Shown here: in pieces, positions 537 to 55,847 of the stretch | Position numbering within the stretch: the first letter of the stretch is position 1 | How the letters are laid out: each line of letters opens with the position of its first letter | NCBI GenBank assembly: GCA_945881775.1 | Contig: CAMCVE010000006.1 | Span: forward strand, 1 to 64,000 | Length of the DNA: 64,000 nt | Direction: 5' to 3' | From: Bacteriovorax stolpii | GTDB taxonomy: Bacteria > Bdellovibrionota > UBA2428 | Translations under genes and position numbers: made by a program | The notes under the pieces: generated by a model | Databases searched by the model: none | What the model was told of the DNA's origin: nothing | What the model saw: the letters and a program-made list of their open reading frames with translations, nothing else

Positions 537-905
537 ATGGGTAAGAAACTTTACGTAGGAAACCTCTCTTTCAAAACTGACGACTCGGCTCTCCAAGCTT
601 TGTTTTCGCAAGTTGGCCAAGTCGAATCGGCTCGAATCATCACTGATCGCGATTCCGGCCGCAGCAAAGGCTTCGGATTCGTGGAAATGTCGAGCGACGC
701 AGAAGCCCAAGAAGGCATCGCTAAGCTCAACGGCCAAGACTTCGAAGGTCGTCCTCTGACTGTTACCGAAGCTCGTCCCCAAGCTCCCCGTGAAGGTGGC
801 TTCGGCGGCGGTCGCGGTGGTGGCGGCGGCGGTGGTTACGGCGGCGGCGGCGGCGGCGGTGGTCGCGGCGGATCCGGCGGCGGCGGTCGCGGCGGTCGTT
901 ACTAA
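537..905 (+). CDS. RRM-type RNA-binding protein with glycine-rich tail
   Basis: A 122-residue protein with one RNA recognition motif (about residues 4-80). RNP2 is LYVGNL near the N-terminus and RNP1 is KGFGFVEM around residue 45. The C-terminus (about 87-122) is almost entirely Gly, Arg and Tyr, an RGG-like low-complexity tail. The family (Rbp proteins of cyanobacteria and many proteobacteria) binds single-stranded RNA and is often cold induced. Start chosen because a perfect AAGGAGG lies 9 bp before the ATG. Monocistronic: a strong terminator follows directly. RNA targets cannot be inferred from sequence. Confidence 0.93.
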   Translation: MGKKLYVGNLSFKTDDSALQALFSQVGQVESARIITDRDSGRSKGFGFVEMSSDAEAQEGIAKLNGQDFEGRPLTVTEARPQAPREGGFGGGRGGGGGGGYGGGGGGGGRGGSGGGGRGGRY

Positions 906-931
906 GACCTGGCCGAATCATTTTAAACGTC

Positions 932-968
932 AAAAGGGTGGGTTCCTTCGGGAACCCACCCTTTTTTT
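932..968 (+). terminator. Strong intrinsic terminator after the RRM gene, probably bidirectional
   Basis: A 14-bp stem (GGGTGGGTTCC pairing with GGAACCCACCC plus flanking A-T pairs) closed by a TTCG tetraloop and followed by seven T. On the opposite strand the hairpin is followed by TTTT, so it may also end rpoD transcription arriving from the right. Confidence 0.92.
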
Positions 969-1012
969 ATTTCTAAAAAGTCAGCACAGTCGGGCCCACA
1001 GGGCCCAGCTGC

Positions 1013-3181
1013 TTAGTTTTCGACGAACGCCTTGAGGTGCTTGGCGCGACTCGGGTGACGAAGCTTGCGGAGCGCCTTGGCTTCAATCTGACGAATCCGC
1101 TCGCGGGTCACAGAGAAGTCCTGTCCCACTTCCTCGAGGGTGTGGTCGGAGCGTTCACCAATCCCAAAGCGCATGCGCAGAACCTTCTCCTCACGAGGCG
1201 TGAGTGTGGCGAGAACCTTACGCGTTTGCTCGGAGAGGTTGAGGTTGATGACGGCTTCAGAGGGATTGATCGCCGTTTTGTCTTCGATGAAGTCTCCAAG
1301 ATGCGAGTCTTCTTCTTCGCCGATAGGGGTTTCGAGTGAGATCGGCTCTTTGGCGATCTTCAGGACCTTGCGGACCTTCTCGACAGGAAGTTCCATCTTT
1401 GCGGCGATTTCTTCAGGCGTGGGCTCACGACCGATTTCTTGCATGAGGTAGCGCGAGGTGCGCACAAGCTTGTTGATCGTTTCGATCATGTGGACGGGAA
1501 TACGGATCGTGCGAGCTTGGTCAGCAATCGCGCGGGTGATTGCTTGGCGAATCCACCAGGTGGCATAGGTCGAGAACTTGTAACCACGGCGGTATTCAAA
1601 CTTGTCGACAGCCTTCATCAGGCCGATGTTGCCTTCTTGAATAAGGTCGAGGAACTGGAGTCCGCGGTTGGTGTACTTCTTTGCGATCGAAACCACGAGA
1701 CGCAGGTTGGCCTCGACGAGTTTGGCTTTCGAGAGGTCGGCCTTCTTCTCACCTTCGACGATCTGCGAGTACATCTTCTTGAGCTTTTCGATGGGAAGGC
1801 CCGACTGACCTTCGACATCTTCAAGGCGAGTGCTTTGCTCAGCAACGATCTGCGCCAGGACACCGATCTCGGCGAGGGTGCGGTTGCCCGCCTGCTTAAA
1901 GGCTTCGAGCTTGCGCTTGGGATCGTCGAATTTTTTCTTGAGCTCTTCGTAGTCCCCAATACTCTTACAGCGAACTTTTCCAAGCTCACGGACGAGGGTG
2001 GCCTCCGAGTCTTCGATAACCTGTACGTAGCCCTTCATGCGACCAACGATACGGTTGATTGTCTTACGGTTGAAGGAAATTTCCTGGAAGGCAAGGAACA
2101 TTCCGTCACGAGCTTTCACAAGATCTTCTTGCTTGGCGTTTCCTGCGTCTAGGAGCAAAGCTTCGAAATCGCGCACACGCTCGATGGCAGTGAGAATCTT
2201 GTCTCGGTATTCGTCTTCGTTGACTTCGGGATCGTCTTCGTCGAGTCCGCGCACGACGTCGCGCACGCGAATCTTGCCGGCCTTGATACGCTCGCCGACT
2301 GAGAGAACTTCTTGGATACCGATCTGAGAGTTCAGAACGACGTCCATGACTTCGGCTTCGCCCTCTTCGATCAACTTAGCGATTTCAACTTCGCCCTCTT
2401 TTGTAAGGAGCGGGATAGAACCCATTTTGCGAAGATAGAGTCGGACAGGATCGTTGGCTTTAGAGAGCGTGTCGACGTCGACTTGCTCCTCTTTTTCGGC
2501 TTCGTCGGCTTCGCCGCCCTCTGGGGCAGCGGCCTCGAGCTCTTCGTCACCGTCCTCAGCGGACTCTTCACCGGGCGCAGCAGCGGCCGGGCTTTTCTTT
2601 TTGGTTTTACCTTTGGCGGCGAATTCTTCTTCTGATTCGACAAGCTGAATTTCTTGATCGATGAGATAGTTTACTGCTTCTTCGAGCTGATCAGACGAAT
2701 TCATTTCCTTCGGAAGAGCAGAGTTGATCTCTTCATAGGTCAGGAAACCCTTCTTCTGACCAAGCGCTGCGAGCTTCTCGAGAACAAGCTCGGGGCTATC
2801 AGGAGTCCGGCCTTTGCGTTTCGTGGTGGCGGCCTCGACAGGGGCTGCGCCTTTTTTTGCGGGCGCAATAGGAGCAGCGATCTTGGCGCTAGCGGGAATT
2901 TGTTTGCCTGCAGCTGCGACCTTAGTGGGTGCGGCTGTCACGATCGTTTTCGTCACAGCGACTGACTTGGTGGCAATGACCTTAGCGGTTTTCTTGTCGA
3001 CGACTGGCGTAGCAACTTTAGCTGTTGAAATTTTCGCAGGTACTTTTTTTGCGGCGAGCGTTTTTGGAGGCGTTGCCTTGGGAGCCGCGACTTTTTTTGC
3101 AGCCGATTTTTTCACCGTGCCCTTTGTAGAAGGTGGGGTGGTCTTGGCGCTTGAATTTTTCTTGGTGCTTTTTTGGGGCAT
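1013..3181 (-). CDS. rpoD: RNA polymerase primary sigma factor RpoD (sigma-70)
   Basis: A 722-residue housekeeping sigma factor. Region 1.1 spans about residues 128-185, followed by an acidic linker (about 200-235) and region 1.2 ([12 protein letters not shown], about 243). Region 2 ([35 protein letters not shown]) and region 4 ([33 protein letters not shown]) are intact, so -10 and -35 recognition should be canonical. Unusual: residues 1-125 form a Lys/Ala/Pro/Thr-rich histone-H1-like tail not found in typical RpoD. It is last in the rpsU-yqeY-dnaG-rpoD cluster, 47 bp after dnaG. The ATG is preceded by GGGAG at a longish spacing, so a start further inside the tail is possible. Confidence 0.97.
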
Positions 3182-3228
3182 TGAGTGCGGGTTCTCCCTA
3201 TCGTCAAAAACTATGGCAGCCTAGCGAA

Positions 3229-5076
3229 TCAGCTTCTTTTTTCCAAACTCAATCTGAGTCGCTGGATCCGCGACAACACCTCAAGTGCTTCTTCCTCGTT
3301 GGGCCGAGAGCGAAGTTGTTGCTCGAGTCGCGCGATTTCTGCGTGAGCTTTTTCCTTCTTAAGGCTATACGCCAATTCCTTAAAAGAAATCAATGCCTTA
3401 TCTGCATTTTCTACACTTTCAAAGCCCTCGGGACTTACGAGTCCGCGGTAGAGCCACTGCTGCAAAAGTGGGTCCAACTGACTTTGCTCAAGCGGTAGAC
3501 TGACAAAAGAGATTTTGAGCTTCTCGTTCGTGCGACGAGCCTCGTCCGACCACGAGCGAACAAGCCCCTCGGCGAGCGACCCGACGAAGAGATCAACTCG
3601 TTGATCCCACTCAGCTTCGCTCGAGGGATGGAGCTTGTCCCAATGCCGTAGCCACCAGACAAGCAGCTCTTCGGCATCACGGTCCCAGGAGTGCTTGGAG
3701 CGCGAATGATCCTTGAAAGGCTCATAGCGGTCTTCATCCAGTCGAGCCACCTTCACAGGAGTCCCAATCTCGTCAAAAGCTGCCTTGAGCTCCTCCGCCC
3801 TGAGACCCACCGAGGCTGCAATTTGGTTAATCAGAAGCTCTTTATGAGTCGAGTCCACACCACGAGCCCAAAGATCTCGCACTCTCTGCAAGGTAGGAAC
3901 CCGGCCAAGCTGCTCGGCACGAGCCTCGCTCACGGTTTGTAAAATGAGCCACTCAAGCCCCTCAGGCGAGCTCTTAAGGAGCCGTCCGACCTCATCGGCT
4001 CCGTGTTTTTGTGTCTTGAGCCATTCATCGGGGTCCTTGCCCTGCAGTCCCGAAAACACGCGCGTGTCCCATCCCGCATCGAGAAGCTGCGGGAGACTTC
4101 GTTTGGTCGACGCGACTCCGGCCTTGTCCGCATCGAGGACAAGAACCATTTGCTTGGTGAAACGCTCCAAGTCGCGCAAGTGTTCGGGTGTGAGCGCCGT
4201 GCCCATGACAGCGACCGACGGAATGCCTAGACGCTGAAAGGCCCACTGGTCGAAATAGCCTTCGACAAGACAGACAAAGCGCTTCTCGTTCATAAGCGGG
4301 ACGGCGAGATCCAGTCCGTAGAGAATTTCTTTTTTCTTGAAGAAAGGGGATTCAGGCGAATTTTTGTATTTTGGATTCTTGGTGTCGACGGGCTTTAGCG
4401 TGCGACCCGAAAATGCAATGACTCGAGAGCGGCGATCGCGAATCGGGATCATCAGCCGGTCCTGGAAAAAGTCGTAGTGCCGGCCGCCGTAGTTGCGCAC
4501 GAGACCTGCATCTTCTGCGACTTGCAAGAGCCCAGCGCTTCGCAGCTTTTGTGCGAGCGTGTCTGGCGATTCGGGGGCCCACCCAAGCTGAAGCTTCACA
4601 ATCTCTTCGTCGGAAAGTCCACGGTCCACGCGCAAGTACTCCAGCGCGCGTTTGGCTCCGGGCGAAGTGGGGTTCATGAGAAGGTAATGAAAAAATTGGG
4701 AGCTACGTGTGAGAGCTTCGAGACCTTGTTCGCGGAGGCCCTTTTCTTGGCGTGAGCGCTCGGCCTCTTGGGGCGAAGCCTTTGGCAACTCGATGCCCAG
4801 TTGTTCGGCGAGCTCTTTGACGGCTTCCATAAAACTAAGGCCCTCGACCTCCTCGAGAAACTTGAAGACATCGCCGCCGCGCTGGCAGCCGTAGCAATAG
4901 TAAAGATTTTTGCGAGTATCGATGCCGAACGACGGTGTCTTCTCGGAATGCCCCGGCAAAGGGCAGCAGGCCTTGTAACCGCCCGATGTTTTCACCAGCT
5001 TGGCGTGTTTCGACACGACCTGGCTGAGATCGATGCGATCTTTGATCTCTTCTTTGATTTCGGCGAGCGAACGCAA
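3229..5076 (-). CDS. dnaG: DNA primase DnaG
   Basis: A 615-residue primase that makes RNA primers at the replication fork with DnaB helicase. It has an N-terminal CHC2 zinc-binding domain (C38, H43, C61, C64), the RNA polymerase core, a Toprim fold (LVEGYFDQWAF, then VLVLDADKAG) and a C-terminal helicase-interaction region. The zinc motif reads CPLPGHSEKTPSF, with four residues between Cys and His instead of the usual two. Start is TTG with GGGGG ten bases upstream. It lies between yqeY and rpoD in the classic macromolecular-synthesis arrangement. Confidence 0.97.
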   Translation of the reverse strand: MRSLAEIKEEIKDRIDLSQVVSKHAKLVKTSGGYKACCPLPGHSEKTPSFGIDTRKNLYYCYGCQRGGDVFKFLEEVEGLSFMEAVKELAEQLGIELPKASPQEAERSRQEKGLREQGLEALTRSSQFFHYLLMNPTSPGAKRALEYLRVDRGLSDEEIVKLQLGWAPESPDTLAQKLRSAGLLQVAEDAGLVRNYGGRHYDFFQDRLMIPIRDRRSRVIAFSGRTLKPVDTKNPKYKNSPESPFFKKKEILYGLDLAVPLMNEKRFVCLVEGYFDQWAFQRLGIPSVAVMGTALTPEHLRDLERFTKQMVLVLDADKAGVASTKRSLPQLLDAGWDTRVFSGLQGKDPDEWLKTQKHGADEVGRLLKSSPEGLEWLILQTVSEARAEQLGRVPTLQRVRDLWARGVDSTHKELLINQIAASVGLRAEELKAAFDEIGTPVKVARLDEDRYEPFKDHSRSKHSWDRDAEELLVWWLRHWDKLHPSSEAEWDQRVDLFVGSLAEGLVRSWSDEARRTNEKLKISFVSLPLEQSQLDPLLQQWLYRGLVSPEGFESVENADKALISFKELAYSLKKEKAHAEIARLEQQLRSRPNEEEALEVLSRIQRLRLSLEKRS

Positions 5077-5110
5077 AGTGATCTTTCCCCCTTGAAACGT
5101 TCTCAGGCCT

Positions 5111-5575
5111 TTAGCCGAGAATGGATTTGACTGCGGCCTGAACTGCTTTGCCCTCAGCTCGAGCTCCGATGCGAGCCATGGTCGCCTTCATGAGCGCACC
5201 CATCGCTGCAGGACCGGCGGGAAGTGTTCCAGCAGTCTTAAGCTCTTCGTAGATTTTCTTAGTTTCAGCCAGAAGATCCGCCTCGCTCATGGCTTGGGGC
5301 AGGAAGGTTTTGAAAGTTGCTATTTCGTATTCGCACTCTTCGATCGATTCGGTGCGACCGAGTGACTTGGCCTGCTCTAGGGTTTCACGCACCTGCTTTT
5401 CGAGGTTCATGATGAGCTTAAGGACTTCGGCGTCTGTGAGTTCCTTGCGTTCGTCGACCTCCTTTTTCTTGATAGCGCTGGTGATGTTACGCAGAACTTG
5501 TGTCTTGGCGCTGTCGCGCGCTTTCATACTTTCGACGACACAGGCTTGGATTTGGGCTTTGAGAGAAAGGGACAT
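5111..5575 (-). CDS. yqeY: GatB/YqeY domain protein
   Basis: A 154-residue YqeY family protein resembling the C-terminal tRNA-binding helical domain of GatB. It begins with the typical MSLxxxI..... KARD....VLRN(I/L).SAIK pattern and ends in the helical tail (MGALMKATMARIGARAEGK). The cellular role is not well defined; a tRNA-related function is inferred from the GatB similarity. It has a good AAGGAG ribosome-binding site. It sits between rpsU and dnaG, a frequent gene order outside the enterics. Confidence 0.92.
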   Translation of the reverse strand: MSLSLKAQIQACVVESMKARDSAKTQVLRNITSAIKKKEVDERKELTDAEVLKLIMNLEKQVRETLEQAKSLGRTESIEECEYEIATFKTFLPQAMSEADLLAETKKIYEELKTAGTLPAGPAAMGALMKATMARIGARAEGKAVQAAVKSILG

Positions 5576-5596
5576 TCATCGCTCCTTAAAACATTT

Positions 5597-5642
5597 TAAA
5601 AAAAATCGTGGGCCCTGAGCTCTGTTAGAAGCCCGGACCCAC
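5597..5642 (-). terminator. Terminator or attenuator between rpsU and yqeY
   Basis: On the minus strand GTGGGTCC pairs with GGGCCCAC (one G-U pair) around a loop of about 19 nt and is followed by GATTTTTTTT. It lies just downstream of rpsU and just upstream of the yqeY ribosome-binding site. In E. coli a partial terminator at the corresponding place (after rpsU, before dnaG) lowers dnaG expression relative to rpsU; the same role is plausible here. Confidence 0.7.
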
Positions 5643-5668
5643 TTAATTGGACAATCTCTAATGATGAT

Positions 5669-5887
5669 TTAGCGGTTCTCGGGTTTGAAGCGAGGACGGG
5701 GCGGACGGCTCTTCTTCTCGAGGCGTTTGACGGCTGCGATAGCTTTGCGTTTTTTCTTCACGGAGGGTTTTTCGTAGTGCTCGCGCTTACGGACCTCAGT
5801 GAGAATGCCTGCTTTTTCACACTGCTTTTTGAAGCGGCGGATAGCGGAATCGAATCCTTCACCTTCGCGGATTTTGACGATTGGCAT
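5669..5887 (-). CDS. rpsU: 30S ribosomal protein bS21
   Basis: A 72-residue, very basic protein with the bS21 pattern: [20 protein letters not shown] at the N-terminus, then K(A)[14 protein letters not shown] and a KKKRK-rich tail. It belongs to the small ribosomal subunit platform and helps initiation. The C-terminal tail is longer and richer in Arg/Pro than in E. coli. First gene of the rpsU-yqeY-dnaG-rpoD cluster. Confidence 0.96.
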
Positions 5888-5972
5888 TTAAAAAATCACC
5901 CCATTTCTTTTGAAGATTCAGACCTTAGGATATGGCACAAGGCCCCGGGGGGCGTCAATGCCAAAGCCGCTC

Positions 5973-7259
5973 TCAGGAATCCACATGGCGATCGACTTCG
6001 GCGCCGAGAGCTTCGAGCTTGTGCTCCATGGTCTCGTAGCCGCGATCGAGGTGATAAATGCGCTTGATCTCGGACTCACCGTCGGCGACGCAGGCCGCCA
6101 GAACCAGGCTGGCACTCGCCCTTAAATCTGTCGCCATAACGGGGGCCCCATGTAGGGTCCCGCGCTTGCCCTTGATTCGAACCGAAGACCCGCTGATCGT
6201 AAGGTCTGCGCCCATGCGCACCAGCTCGGGGACGTGCATGAATCGATTTTCGAAAATGGTCTCAGTCACGAGACTGTCTCCATCGGCCTGAGTCATGAGC
6301 GTGATCCATTGGGCCTGCACATCTGTGGGAAATCCAGGAAATGGCGCGGTGATGGCATCCACGGGACGGATCTTTTCAGATCCGATCACACGCACATAAT
6401 CGGCACCTCGCTCGACCTTGGCGCCCGTTTGCTCGAGCATCTGCAAGACGACTTCCATGTCATCGGCGCAGGCGCCCCTCACAGTCACGTCGCCGCCGCT
6501 CATCTGCGCCCCAATAAGATAAGTCGCCACTTCAATGCGATCAGGAGGAATGGCGAAGTCCATCGGCCTGAGCTTCTCGACGCCTTGGACTTCGATCGTC
6601 GACGTTCCTTCGCCAGAGATCATCGCACCCATGCCACGCAGGGCTTTTGCAAGCGACTGGATTTCGGGTTCGCGTGCTGCGTTCTCGATGACGCTAGTTC
6701 CTTGAGCGAGCACCGCTGCCATGAGAGCATTTTCGGTGGCGCCCACTGAGACTTTAGGGAAGATGACCTTGCCTCCACGGAGGCGTCCTTTGCACGAAGC
6801 CTCGGCATATCCGTTTGTCTGAACGATATCGGCGCCAAGTTTTTCGAGTGCCATCAAGTGAAGATCGATCGGACGCGCGCCAATCGCGCACCCGCCGGGC
6901 AAAGAAACTCGAGCACGCCCTGTGCGAGCGAGAAGAGGACCCATACAAAAGAAACTCGCGCGCATTTTGCGCACGTAATCGTAAGGGGCCTCACTGCTGG
7001 TGATCTTTGTGGCGTCGACCATCCAGTCGGCGCCAAAGCTCTTATGAAAACGTTGCTCAACGGGACATCCAAAATGCAAAAGCATTCGCTGCGAAAATTC
7101 CATATCGGCGAGCCGCGGCACATTTCGAACCGAGTGGCGCCCTTCTGCGAGCAGTGTCGCGAACATGATCGGCAGAGCGGCGTTCTTCGAGCCGCCCGCG
7201 TCGATCGTGCCTTTGAGTCGATGGGGTCCCTTAATGACGAATTTATCCACGCGCCACAT
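5973..7259 (-). CDS. murA: UDP-N-acetylglucosamine 1-carboxyvinyltransferase MurA
   Basis: A protein of about 428 residues catalysing the first committed step of peptidoglycan synthesis, transfer of enolpyruvate from PEP to UDP-GlcNAc. Visible marks are GGSKNAALPI near the N-terminus (catalytic Lys) and LPGGCAIGARPIDLHL with the active-site Cys that fosfomycin alkylates. Cys is present, so the enzyme itself is predicted to be fosfomycin sensitive. I chose the ATG at 7259 (MWRVDKFVI); a GTG at 7250 would give the family-typical MDKFVI start and a TTG at 7277 is also in frame. It lies 32 bp after prmC in the same direction. Confidence 0.96.
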   Translation of the reverse strand: MWRVDKFVIKGPHRLKGTIDAGGSKNAALPIMFATLLAEGRHSVRNVPRLADMEFSQRMLLHFGCPVEQRFHKSFGADWMVDATKITSSEAPYDYVRKMRASFFCMGPLLARTGRARVSLPGGCAIGARPIDLHLMALEKLGADIVQTNGYAEASCKGRLRGGKVIFPKVSVGATENALMAAVLAQGTSVIENAAREPEIQSLAKALRGMGAMISGEGTSTIEVQGVEKLRPMDFAIPPDRIEVATYLIGAQMSGGDVTVRGACADDMEVVLQMLEQTGAKVERGADYVRVIGSEKIRPVDAITAPFPGFPTDVQAQWITLMTQADGDSLVTETIFENRFMHVPELVRMGADLTISGSSVRIKGKRGTLHGAPVMATDLRASASLVLAACVADGESEIKRIYHLDRGYETMEHKLEALGAEVDRHVDS

Positions 7260-53500: not shown

Positions 53501-53578
53501 GGTGGCTGTAGTTCAGTTGGTTAGAACGCTAGATTGTGATTCTAGAGGTCGCGGGTTCGACCCCCGTCAGTCACCCCA
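53501..53578 (+). tRNA. tRNA-His (anticodon GTG)
   Basis: A complete cloverleaf with the extra 5' G (-1) typical of tRNA-His and C at position 73, acceptor GTGGCTG/CAGTCAC, anticodon loop TTGTGAT (GTG), T-loop TTCGACC and encoded CCA. Its last 20 bases are part of a 72-bp direct repeat that recurs 2.2 kb downstream, marking it as an integration site. Confidence 0.95.
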
Positions 53579-53630
53579 ATTTTAGGTTGAAGTTTGCACT
53601 CCGCAAAAAATTCACAAACAAACTCAAACG
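53559..53630. repeat. Left 72-bp direct repeat (attL-like)
   Basis: The first 21 bases, which include the tRNA-His T-stem/acceptor 3' end and CCA, are identical to 55776-55796. The whole 72-bp stretch matches 55776-55847 at 67 positions. The repeat extends about 50 bp past the tRNA end. Confidence 0.9.
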
Positions 53631-53701
53631 CCTCTAAACACGAAGCTGGGTTAGCTCGTGGGCTTGTTCATTTCATCAGATTTCTGGGAATACCTGTAGC
53701 T

Positions 53702-53744
53702 TGCTACTTTTTTGCTACACGGATGCTACACCGGTGCTACACGG
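53702..53744. repeat. Four tandem 11-bp TGCTAC repeats
   Basis: TGCTAC recurs at exact 11-bp intervals at 53702, 53713, 53724 and 53735; the last three share TGCTACAC(C)GG. An inverted half (TGTAGC, 53695-53700) precedes them. They lie between the left repeat and the antitoxin gene. Spacing near one helical turn suggests cooperative protein binding, such as integrase arm-type sites, an excisionase or a plasmid-like initiator. Confidence 0.8.
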
Positions 53745-53745
53745 C

Positions 53746-54063
53746 CTAAGCAGCGGGCTTGAGCGAAACGCTGTATTTGAGACCTGCGGCAGCAAGGCTT
53801 TCTTCGATAGACATCTCAACCAATAGATTCACAGAGTATCCCAGTACCTTGGCAATTTCTGCGGCCTTTTCGGGACTCACACCTTTGCGCCCCATTTCGA
53901 TGTCGCAGAGATTTGCACGGCTGATACCAAGTTTCTTTGCAAAAGCTACTTGAGAGAGCTCATTGCTCATTCGCCAAGATCTCAGGAAAGCTGCCACGCT
54001 TCTTTTTCCAAGACGCTTTTCGAGATCTTTGATTCCGTATGAATTTTTACTTTTTGTACTCAT
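53746..54063 (-). CDS. XRE-family antitoxin, HigA-like
   Basis: A 105-residue protein with a Cro/C1-type HTH in the middle (QVAFAKKLGISRANLCDIEMGRKG) followed by a short dimerisation tail. It overlaps the end of the toxin gene by 17 bp, in toxin-first order as in higBA. The HTH probably binds the palindrome in the promoter upstream and, with toxin, autoregulates the pair. It sits inside the tRNA-His element. Confidence 0.85.
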   Translation of the reverse strand: MSTKSKNSYGIKDLEKRLGKRSVAAFLRSWRMSNELSQVAFAKKLGISRANLCDIEMGRKGVSPEKAAEIAKVLGYSVNLLVEMSIEESLAAAGLKYSVSLKPAA

Positions 54064-54331
54064 GTTTACTCACCTTTGTTACTTCTGCGACCTTGATGCT
54101 TCCGTCGGCAGATTCGAAATAAAAGACCCTGTGCGCCTTTGAGATTCGCACTGACCGGAGCCCTGCCAACTCGCCACGCAACTTTTCGTCGTGGTATCCT
54201 GCGAGCTTTCGAATGGATTCCATTCCATCTTTCTCGACTGCCTTGGCCCAGTCATAAAAAGACCCCACGATATACTCCGGCAGGTCATCCAACTGTTTTT
54301 GAACTTTCCGACTCCAACGCACCTGCCACAC
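54047..54331 (-). CDS. RelE/ParE-superfamily toxin, HigB-like
   Basis: A protein of about 94 residues from a GTG at 54331 (MWQVRWSRKVQKQLDDLP). It follows the HigB-like pattern: DWAKAVEKDGMESIRKL, then GYHDEKLRGELAGLRSVRIS, HRVFYFESADGSIKVAEVTK and a KHEY end. Family members are ribosome-dependent mRNA interferases neutralised by the partner antitoxin. The frame is open upstream to 54511, but that part lacks family similarity and would run through the promoter. The -10 sits only six bases before the GTG, so the mRNA may be leaderless. Confidence 0.8.
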   Translation of the reverse strand: MWQVRWSRKVQKQLDDLPEYIVGSFYDWAKAVEKDGMESIRKLAGYHDEKLRGELAGLRSVRISKAHRVFYFESADGSIKVAEVTKVSKHEYKK

Positions 54332-54337
54332 AACCTC

Positions 54338-54366
54338 ACTGTACTGCTTTAAGAAGTACAGATCAA
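54338..54366 (-). promoter_or_regulatory. Toxin-antitoxin promoter with embedded operator palindrome
   Basis: Minus strand: -35 TTGATC (54361-54366), 17-bp spacer, -10 TACAGT (54338-54343). A perfect inverted repeat CTGTACT-N9-AGTACAG (54339-54361) fills the spacer and overlaps both boxes, an ideal position for an antitoxin to block polymerase. Confidence 0.7.
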
Positions 54367-54621
54367 CCCTTAAACATTGGGATGCTCTTGATTTGTGCCG
54401 GCCAAACCCCGCAATTTTTTGGATAAATATTGGAAATTTAAAAGCTACGCTGACCTGTGGTTGGCTATAGGCTTTGGGGCTACGGAGGCCTGCGCGCGTA
54501 GCGTTTGCCATAGTTCAGTTTATTAAACACCTGATGAAATGCTGGGACTTTCCGCCGCGATCCGCGAAGTTCAGACATTGGATTTCTAGACGCTTCAATA
54601 GAACGACGATACCCTGATTGA

Positions 54622-55071
54622 GTGGTAAAGATCAGGAGCGCTCTCCCTGTAGACGCTCAAGAAATTTCTAAGGTCGAGTCTGAGGCCCATCCGCAGGAAG
54701 TCGCAGCAACTCTCGAAGATTTTCGCGAGTATCTTAGCGATCCACAGAAACGGCAAACGATTTTAGTCGCTGAAAACGACGGCATTGTAGCCGGCTTCCT
54801 CGGCTACACAATTCAAGAGAAGTATCGAGTATATATCTGGGATATTGCAGTCAGGCAGAATCAGCGGTCGAGAGGAATCGCAACGAACTTACTGACGGCC
54901 CTAATCACCAAGGCGGCAGCCCAGGGCATGCGTTCCGTTTTTCTAAAAGTTTCTGATGAAAATATTCCGGCGCATCGCCTATACGGTCGATTCAATTTTG
55001 TCCTAAAAGATCAACTCAAAGACTATTACGGACATTCTCGGGATGCTTTTGTTTTGGAGCTTATTTTATAA
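54622..55071 (+). CDS. GNAT family N-acetyltransferase
   Basis: A 149-residue protein with the acetyl-CoA-binding motif A (IAVRQNQRSRGIATNLLTAL; R-x2-G-I/L-A pattern) and motif B region (NIPAHRLYGRFNFVLKDQLKDYY). This resembles RimI-type peptide acetyltransferases. The substrate is unknown; it could be a cargo gene. Start is GTG. It lies inside the tRNA-His element and has a strong terminator downstream. Confidence 0.85.
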   Translation: MVKIRSALPVDAQEISKVESEAHPQEVAATLEDFREYLSDPQKRQTILVAENDGIVAGFLGYTIQEKYRVYIWDIAVRQNQRSRGIATNLLTALITKAAAQGMRSVFLKVSDENIPAHRLYGRFNFVLKDQLKDYYGHSRDAFVLELIL

Positions 55072-55221: not shown

Positions 55222-55350
55222 TCAACTGGGGACTTTCTCGGGTTCAATTTTTGAAAATATATCCAGGATCTCTTGGTAAATAGGAGATTCAAACTGAATT
55301 AAACATACTTCATTATCTGAGAATACTGTGCACTCATATTCAGCAGCTCT
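55222..55350 (-). pseudogene. Possible remnant of a truncated gene (3' end)
   Basis: On the minus strand this stretch encodes AEYECTVFSDNEVCLIQFES followed by a helical IYQEILDIFSKIEPEKVPS tail and a stop. It looks protein-like, but upstream the frame runs antisense into the recombinase fragment and no suitable start is present. It may be the surviving 3' end of a gene cut at the same junction as the recombinase. Weakly supported. Confidence 0.3.
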
Positions 55351-55663
55351 GTCTAACAAATTTTGGGAATGGGAAAAGGACGAACAGGCGCGTGTGCTCA
55401 GGCACCTCTGCAAAAGCATCGGCATCACGCTCGTGAAGTTTCACGACCTCAGGGCAACGTTCATCACGCAGCTTTTGCTTAAAGGTGTTTCTCTGGCCCA
55501 GGTCATGGCTATCGTAGGTCACGCGGAACTCAAAACCACCAACCGCTATCTGCGAGTTCTAGGAACCGATCTGGACGGAGTCACAGACAAGCTCGGCTTT
55601 TCGCTCCCACAAGACCAGCTCGCCAAGGTTATCGACCTTAGGGCGAGCGGGGAAAGGGGGTGA
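55328..55663 (+). pseudogene. Tyrosine recombinase/integrase, C-terminal fragment
   Basis: About 111 codons that carry only the C-terminal part of a phage-type integrase: FHDLRATFITQLLL (HxxR, box II), VMAIVGHAELKTTNRYLRV (His and the nucleophile Tyr). The N-terminal arm/core-binding domains and the first catalytic Arg are missing. Integrase-like sequence begins at about FWEWEKDEQARVL; codons before that do not fit. It points towards the right direct repeat, as integrases often lie next to an att site. Confidence 0.85.
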
Positions 55664-55718: not shown

Positions 55719-55735
55719 GGCTACACGGCGCTACA
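55719..55735. repeat. Two further GCTACA repeats near the right end of the element
   Basis: GGCTACACGGC (55719-55729) matches the left-end repeats and is followed by GCTACATT at 55730, a 10-bp interval. They lie 40-55 bp inside the right direct repeat, mirroring the left-end cluster. Confidence 0.7.
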
Positions 55736-55775: not shown

Positions 55776-55847
55776 GACCCCCGTCAGTCACCCCAAGTTT
55801 AGATTGAAGTTTGCACTCCTTAAAAAATTCACAAACAAACTCAAATG
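55776..55847. repeat. Right 72-bp direct repeat (attR-like)
   Basis: The second copy of the repeat at 53559-53630: 21 identical bases covering the tRNA-His 3' end, then about 51 bp with five mismatches in total. The remainder of the tRNA is absent here, as expected for the distal end of an inserted element. Confidence 0.9.

Follow-up and report, generated by a model that had tools for sequence, protein, structure and literature searches.

The TGCTAC arrays described here are very likely the arm-type sites of a tyrosine integrase that targets tRNA and tmRNA genes and belongs to an island family of the Bdellovibrionota, the copy in the window (the whole 64,000-nucleotide stretch of Bacteriovorax stolpii DNA that was analyzed) being a remnant. 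Judged from sequence comparisons, the motif is very probably where the arm-binding domain of the integrase docks. This reading, put forward in the earlier note, gains support from arrays placed at tRNA edges, from motifs present at both ends of islands and from relatives with an intact integrase. The object in the window, a decayed tRNA island, is of an ordinary kind; what is interesting is the family, in which the geometry stays fixed while the motif changes, exposing arm-site specificity.

The window element lies at an intact tRNA-His(GTG) gene on the forward strand (53502–53578, found with ARAGORN), whose 3′ end is the integration target. The forward-strand attL (53559–53628) is a 70-nt direct repeat made up of the tRNA-His 3′ end and 50 nt beyond it. 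It is 94% identical to attR (55776–55845, forward strand), in which repeat comparison found the 3′ end of tRNA-His and the next 50 nt duplicated; the two differ at 4 of 70 positions. At the 3′ end of a tRNA gene, the element carries the att repeats that are expected of a functional integrative element, and inside them a repeated short motif flanks the core on both sides. The distal array (53702–53744, forward strand), defined by motif position and by genome and phylum searches, starts 124 bp past the tRNA-His 3′ end. It holds four TGCTAC units in steps of exactly 11 bp (53702, 53713, 53724 and 53735), just as the earlier note had it. At the other end, the integrase stop codon is followed by 56 bp, a pair of GCTACA sites and then the tRNA copy. 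This integrase-proximal pair (55719–55735, forward strand), recognized by a place and spacing shared with most relatives, was correctly located in the earlier note; its spacing is 10 bp rather than 11 (55720 and 55730). An inverted half-site reported before the array does exist as GTAGC at 53696–53700. It is absent from that place in relatives, and we dropped it as probably due to chance.

Between the two arms lie three cargo genes and what is left of the integrase. A HigA-like XRE antitoxin or repressor (53746–54063, reverse strand; PF01381, with TIGR02607 under the cutoff) is followed by a RelE/ParE-like toxin (54047–54511, reverse strand; PF05016, barely over the cutoff), a GNAT acetyltransferase (54622–55071, forward strand; PF00583) and a 111-aa C-terminal remnant of a tyrosine integrase (55328–55663, forward strand) that matches only positions 112–168 of the 172 in the PF00589 profile.

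The repeat is unlike what chance produces. When the window was shuffled 60 times with dinucleotides preserved, no exact array of three or four 6-mers at 11 bp arose, and in the real window all such matches belong to the TGCTAC array. In the 2.3-Mb genome, a search with GCTACA-N5 repeated three times (18 bases, up to two mismatches) returned only the window site, against one match for the reversed control. A loose search of the genome for the single unit TGCTACACSG with a mismatch was not significant, with 6 matches where 3.8 are expected, so the signal resides in phasing and placement. Across 369 Bdellovibrionota genomes, TGCTAC-N5 repeated three times gave 30 matches, two of which are the window's own and overlap; the corresponding GGTAAC search gave 15, and the reversed controls gave none in either case. 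The earlier note had named a random genome-wide frequency, or absence from related elements with an intact integrase, as grounds for doubting its reading; the array is unique in its own genome and is present in such elements. Three other genomes of the same family yielded no TGCTAC array, and a search of own-family genomes for homologues of the flanking gene, intended for an empty-site comparison, also found none.

The placement of these arrays is as telling as their number. Of the 28 TGCTAC matches outside the window, 12 start 125–127 bp (one, at a tRNA-Ser, 136 bp) past a tRNA gene on the same strand, the tRNAs ahead of such distal arrays being tRNA-Pro, fMet, Ser and His. Another four start 137–138 bp past tmRNA, and three are GTAGCA arrays, 123–124 bp from tRNA-Gln or Asn, read from the opposite strand. 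Several of the remainder have a tRNA or tmRNA 3′-end fragment at the equivalent place. GGTAAC arrays behave alike, with 10 of 15 at 121–126 bp past tRNA-Gln, Pro or Asp and one at 191 bp. Together, the counts against reversed controls and the near-fixed distance from tRNA genes rule out a chance repeat and tie the array to the island edge. For many of the arrays found across the phylum, no integrase was seen within the roughly 20–39 kb examined, or the contig ends.

On the integrase side, one scan recovered related integrases at about 70 loci, of which nearly all belong to Bdellovibrionota. In most of them the integrase stop codon is directly followed by a short motif in two copies, usually exactly 10 bp apart, and then by a sequence that resembles a tRNA 3′ end and finishes in CCA. 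The motif takes several forms (GCTACT/A/C, GGTAAC, GGTAGC, CTTGCC, ATCTTC, GATGAC, TTCTAC and CCCTAC). Scanning the relatives for GCTACA alone gave few matches because the motif differs between integrases, and repeats had to be detected de novo. Several islands with an intact integrase have matching motifs at their two ends: this is so for a 33-kb tRNA-Pro island (L121+L144), a 25-kb tRNA-Ser island (L125+L146) and a 3.9-kb tRNA-Ser island (inside L141), while GGTAACC marks both ends of a tRNA-Asp island (L184+L174), and GCTTCT both ends of a 5.3-kb tRNA-Pro island (L018), with a single copy on the integrase side. The 33-kb island, from an Oligoflexia genome, carries TraG/TraD, TrbI and TraC together with kdp potassium-uptake genes, and is a probable integrative conjugative element. 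A separate subgroup (L115–L120, arrays at 779–851 after orientation) targets the tmRNA 3′ end; the integrase of one member, L116, is only about 36% identical to the family.

This layout bears directly on two other ways of explaining the repeat. The earlier note had allowed that the tandem array might be an iteron, which its 11-bp phasing does resemble; it would then bind the replication initiator of a plasmid-like element that had integrated. However, no Rep gene was seen among the open reading frames of the element, and a second half-set stands at the far end beside the integrase. In relatives, the array likewise sits at the tRNA edge with a matching pair after the integrase at the opposite edge, and the class of motif follows the integrase arm domain, all of which makes iterons highly improbable. 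The array also ends just short of the higA stop codon, as might suggest operator sites for the neighboring HigA-like XRE regulator. That places it 3′ of higA, outside the promoter; matching sites lie 2 kb away, and the arrays of relatives adjoin unrelated cargo (kdp, other small genes and conjugation genes); we consider an operator function very improbable.

A second phased array, overlooked in the earlier note, adjoins the arm-type sites. In the window, ATTTC-type sites in 10-bp phase (53670–53694, forward strand) form candidate sites for an excisionase, or recombination directionality factor (RDF); two are kept (53670 and 53680) and the third (53690) has degenerated to ATACC. The set is conserved in relatives, where TTTC or ATTTC recurs at 10-bp intervals, about 31, 21 and 11 bp ahead of the arm array, across 35 non-redundant left ends; in the tmRNA group, ATCAC replaces ATTTC at similar spacing. 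A gene of the excisionase type, HTH_17-like, lies upstream of the integrase in 50 of 55 loci. By analogy with known systems, its product probably binds the ATTTC array.

Full-length integrases of the family comprise arm, core-binding and catalytic domains. Phage_integrase was matched in all 35 relatives and Arm-DNA-bind_4 in 13 of them. AlphaFold, supplied with the family alignment, predicts a β-β-β-α fold for the N-terminus (strands 3–8, 11–21 and 27–35, helix 38–58; mean pLDDT 84, pTM 0.65), and the best matches among solved structures are the Tn1549 and lambda integrases. An all-helical fold obtained for the arm domain alone from a single sequence was set aside, as it is most likely an artefact of the missing alignment.

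Motif and arm domain vary together. Among 37 integrases, with hexamers assigned by hand, motif distance tracks arm-domain distance when the remainder of the protein is controlled for (partial r 0.60, p 0.0002; shared ancestry is only partly removed by such Mantel tests), and the reverse control, the rest of the protein given the arm, shows no such relation (partial r −0.006, p 0.51). An uncurated rerun on 26 integrases gave a partial r of 0.29 (p 0.0006). Statistical covariation thus suggests that motif specificity follows the arm domain; for the window array, this specificity is read from relatives that are 60–67% identical over the C-terminus. The highest excess mutual information with the motif falls on residues 19, 17 and 29, all in arm strands 2 and 3; residue 27 is among the top six columns, and some columns outside the arm domain are also high. 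Residue 19 is Asn with TGCTAC, Lys with GGTAAC and GGTAGC, and Thr with CTTGCC. These pairings raise the plausible, still tentative reading that arm residues 17, 19, 27 and 29 form a decodable code that sets the hexamer within a fixed geometry.

Such a code, if true, could allow several islands to be stacked at a single tRNA gene with no integrase recognizing its neighbor's sites. Stacking itself is evident at five loci (L036, L051, L067, L069 and L046), where the distal array of a second island stands behind the att site of the first, about 190–215 bp after the integrase stop codon. The motifs of the tandem neighbors are clearly different in four of the five.

In the mechanism that these features suggest, the N-terminal β-β-β-α arm domain of intact relatives would read the hexamer. 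The distal arm would offer three or four sites at an 11-bp pitch and the integrase-proximal arm two at a 10-bp pitch, a spacing that would line up integrase protomers along a single face of the helix. In the window, the only account of why the spacing is 10 bp on the right and 11 bp on the left comes from analogy with relatives. The arm sites would also bridge these protomers to the core, which lies at the 3′ end of the tRNA gene, and the HTH_17 excisionase, whose gene immediately precedes that of the integrase, probably binds the phased ATTTC array beside the distal arm sites.

Comparable arrangements are known elsewhere. In lambda, a small N-terminal domain of the integrase binds repeated sites on both attP arms, and the stretch between arm and core sites holds those for the accessory proteins Xis, IHF and Fis (PMC4880445). 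The Bdellovibrionota islands share the repeated sites on both arms and have candidate sites for a second protein between arm and core. In contrast to the lambda set, which differs in sequence and arrangement, their arrays are regular, at 11 bp distally and 10 bp proximally, and are tied to tRNA 3′ ends. In the attP sites of cluster K mycobacteriophages, which use tRNA or tmRNA genes, the core is flanked by 11-bp arm repeats in pairs or sets, and changes at N-terminal positions 17 and 19 were proposed to alter arm-site recognition (PMC3203893). The agreement on residues 17 and 19 is one of position number, and that comparison drew on a few closely related phages, whereas the Bdellovibrionota islands provide 37 integrases of divergent sequence with about ten classes of motif. 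For ICEMlSymR7A, IntS has five P/arm motifs and the HTH_17-like directionality factor RdfS binds beside an arm site (PMC11963761). The motif sequences differ from those found here, and rdfS lies far from int, whereas the HTH_17 gene of the Bdellovibrionota islands is just upstream of it. Elements of the Tn916/Tn1549 type, with a three-stranded-sheet arm domain (Arm-DNA-bind_4), give the best fold match for the core-binding and catalytic parts (PDB 6emy). The solved Tn1549 chain (aa 82–397) is without the arm domain. Tn1549 is not known to target the 3′ ends of tRNA genes.

Mapping of arm sites normally proceeds by experiment, element by element. A phylum-wide family with constant layout, in which the hexamer and the residues that read it vary, turns arm-site recognition into a comparative problem, and the recognition rules of such integrases could be worked out from dozens of relatives. 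The family also supplies a rule for finding islands in Bdellovibrionota: a tRNA 3′ end, about 125 bp, then three 11-bp repeats. It extends to remnants that have lost their integrase.

The window element is itself most likely a grounded remnant, 2.2 kb long and unable to move by itself. Its integrase fragment aligns to residues ~278–382 of full-length relatives, so that about the last 100 of some 370 residues remain. The arm-binding domain, the core-binding domain and the regions of the first catalytic Arg and Lys are gone, leaving the R-K-H-R-H-Y catalytic set incomplete. A search of the element for a remnant of the integrase N-terminus found none, and the excisionase is lost too; both ends are kept. 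Elsewhere in the 95%-complete genome no close relative of the integrase was found, the best other match being 41% over 58 aa. It is this reduction to the C-terminus, together with the lack of a close relative in the genome, that leads us to regard the element as grounded. The rival to this view, which leaves the arm-site reading untouched, is that the element is live but non-autonomous and could be mobilized in trans by a full-length integrase from another island. In its favor, the element and a second reduced island (L139) both keep two ends, and those of L139 nearly match the ends of the intact 33-kb island. The absence of a close integrase relative argues against it, and the degenerate third ATTTC site and the differences between the att copies suggest age; we consider this alternative unlikely.

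L139 (~663–6500 after orientation), a twin of the window element, is a 5.6-kb island that retains both ends and only the last ~47 aa of its integrase. In the window, the part of the remnant closest to the distal array is the HigA-like/RelE-like pair (53746–54511), a toxin–antitoxin pair that could help to hold the dead island in place.
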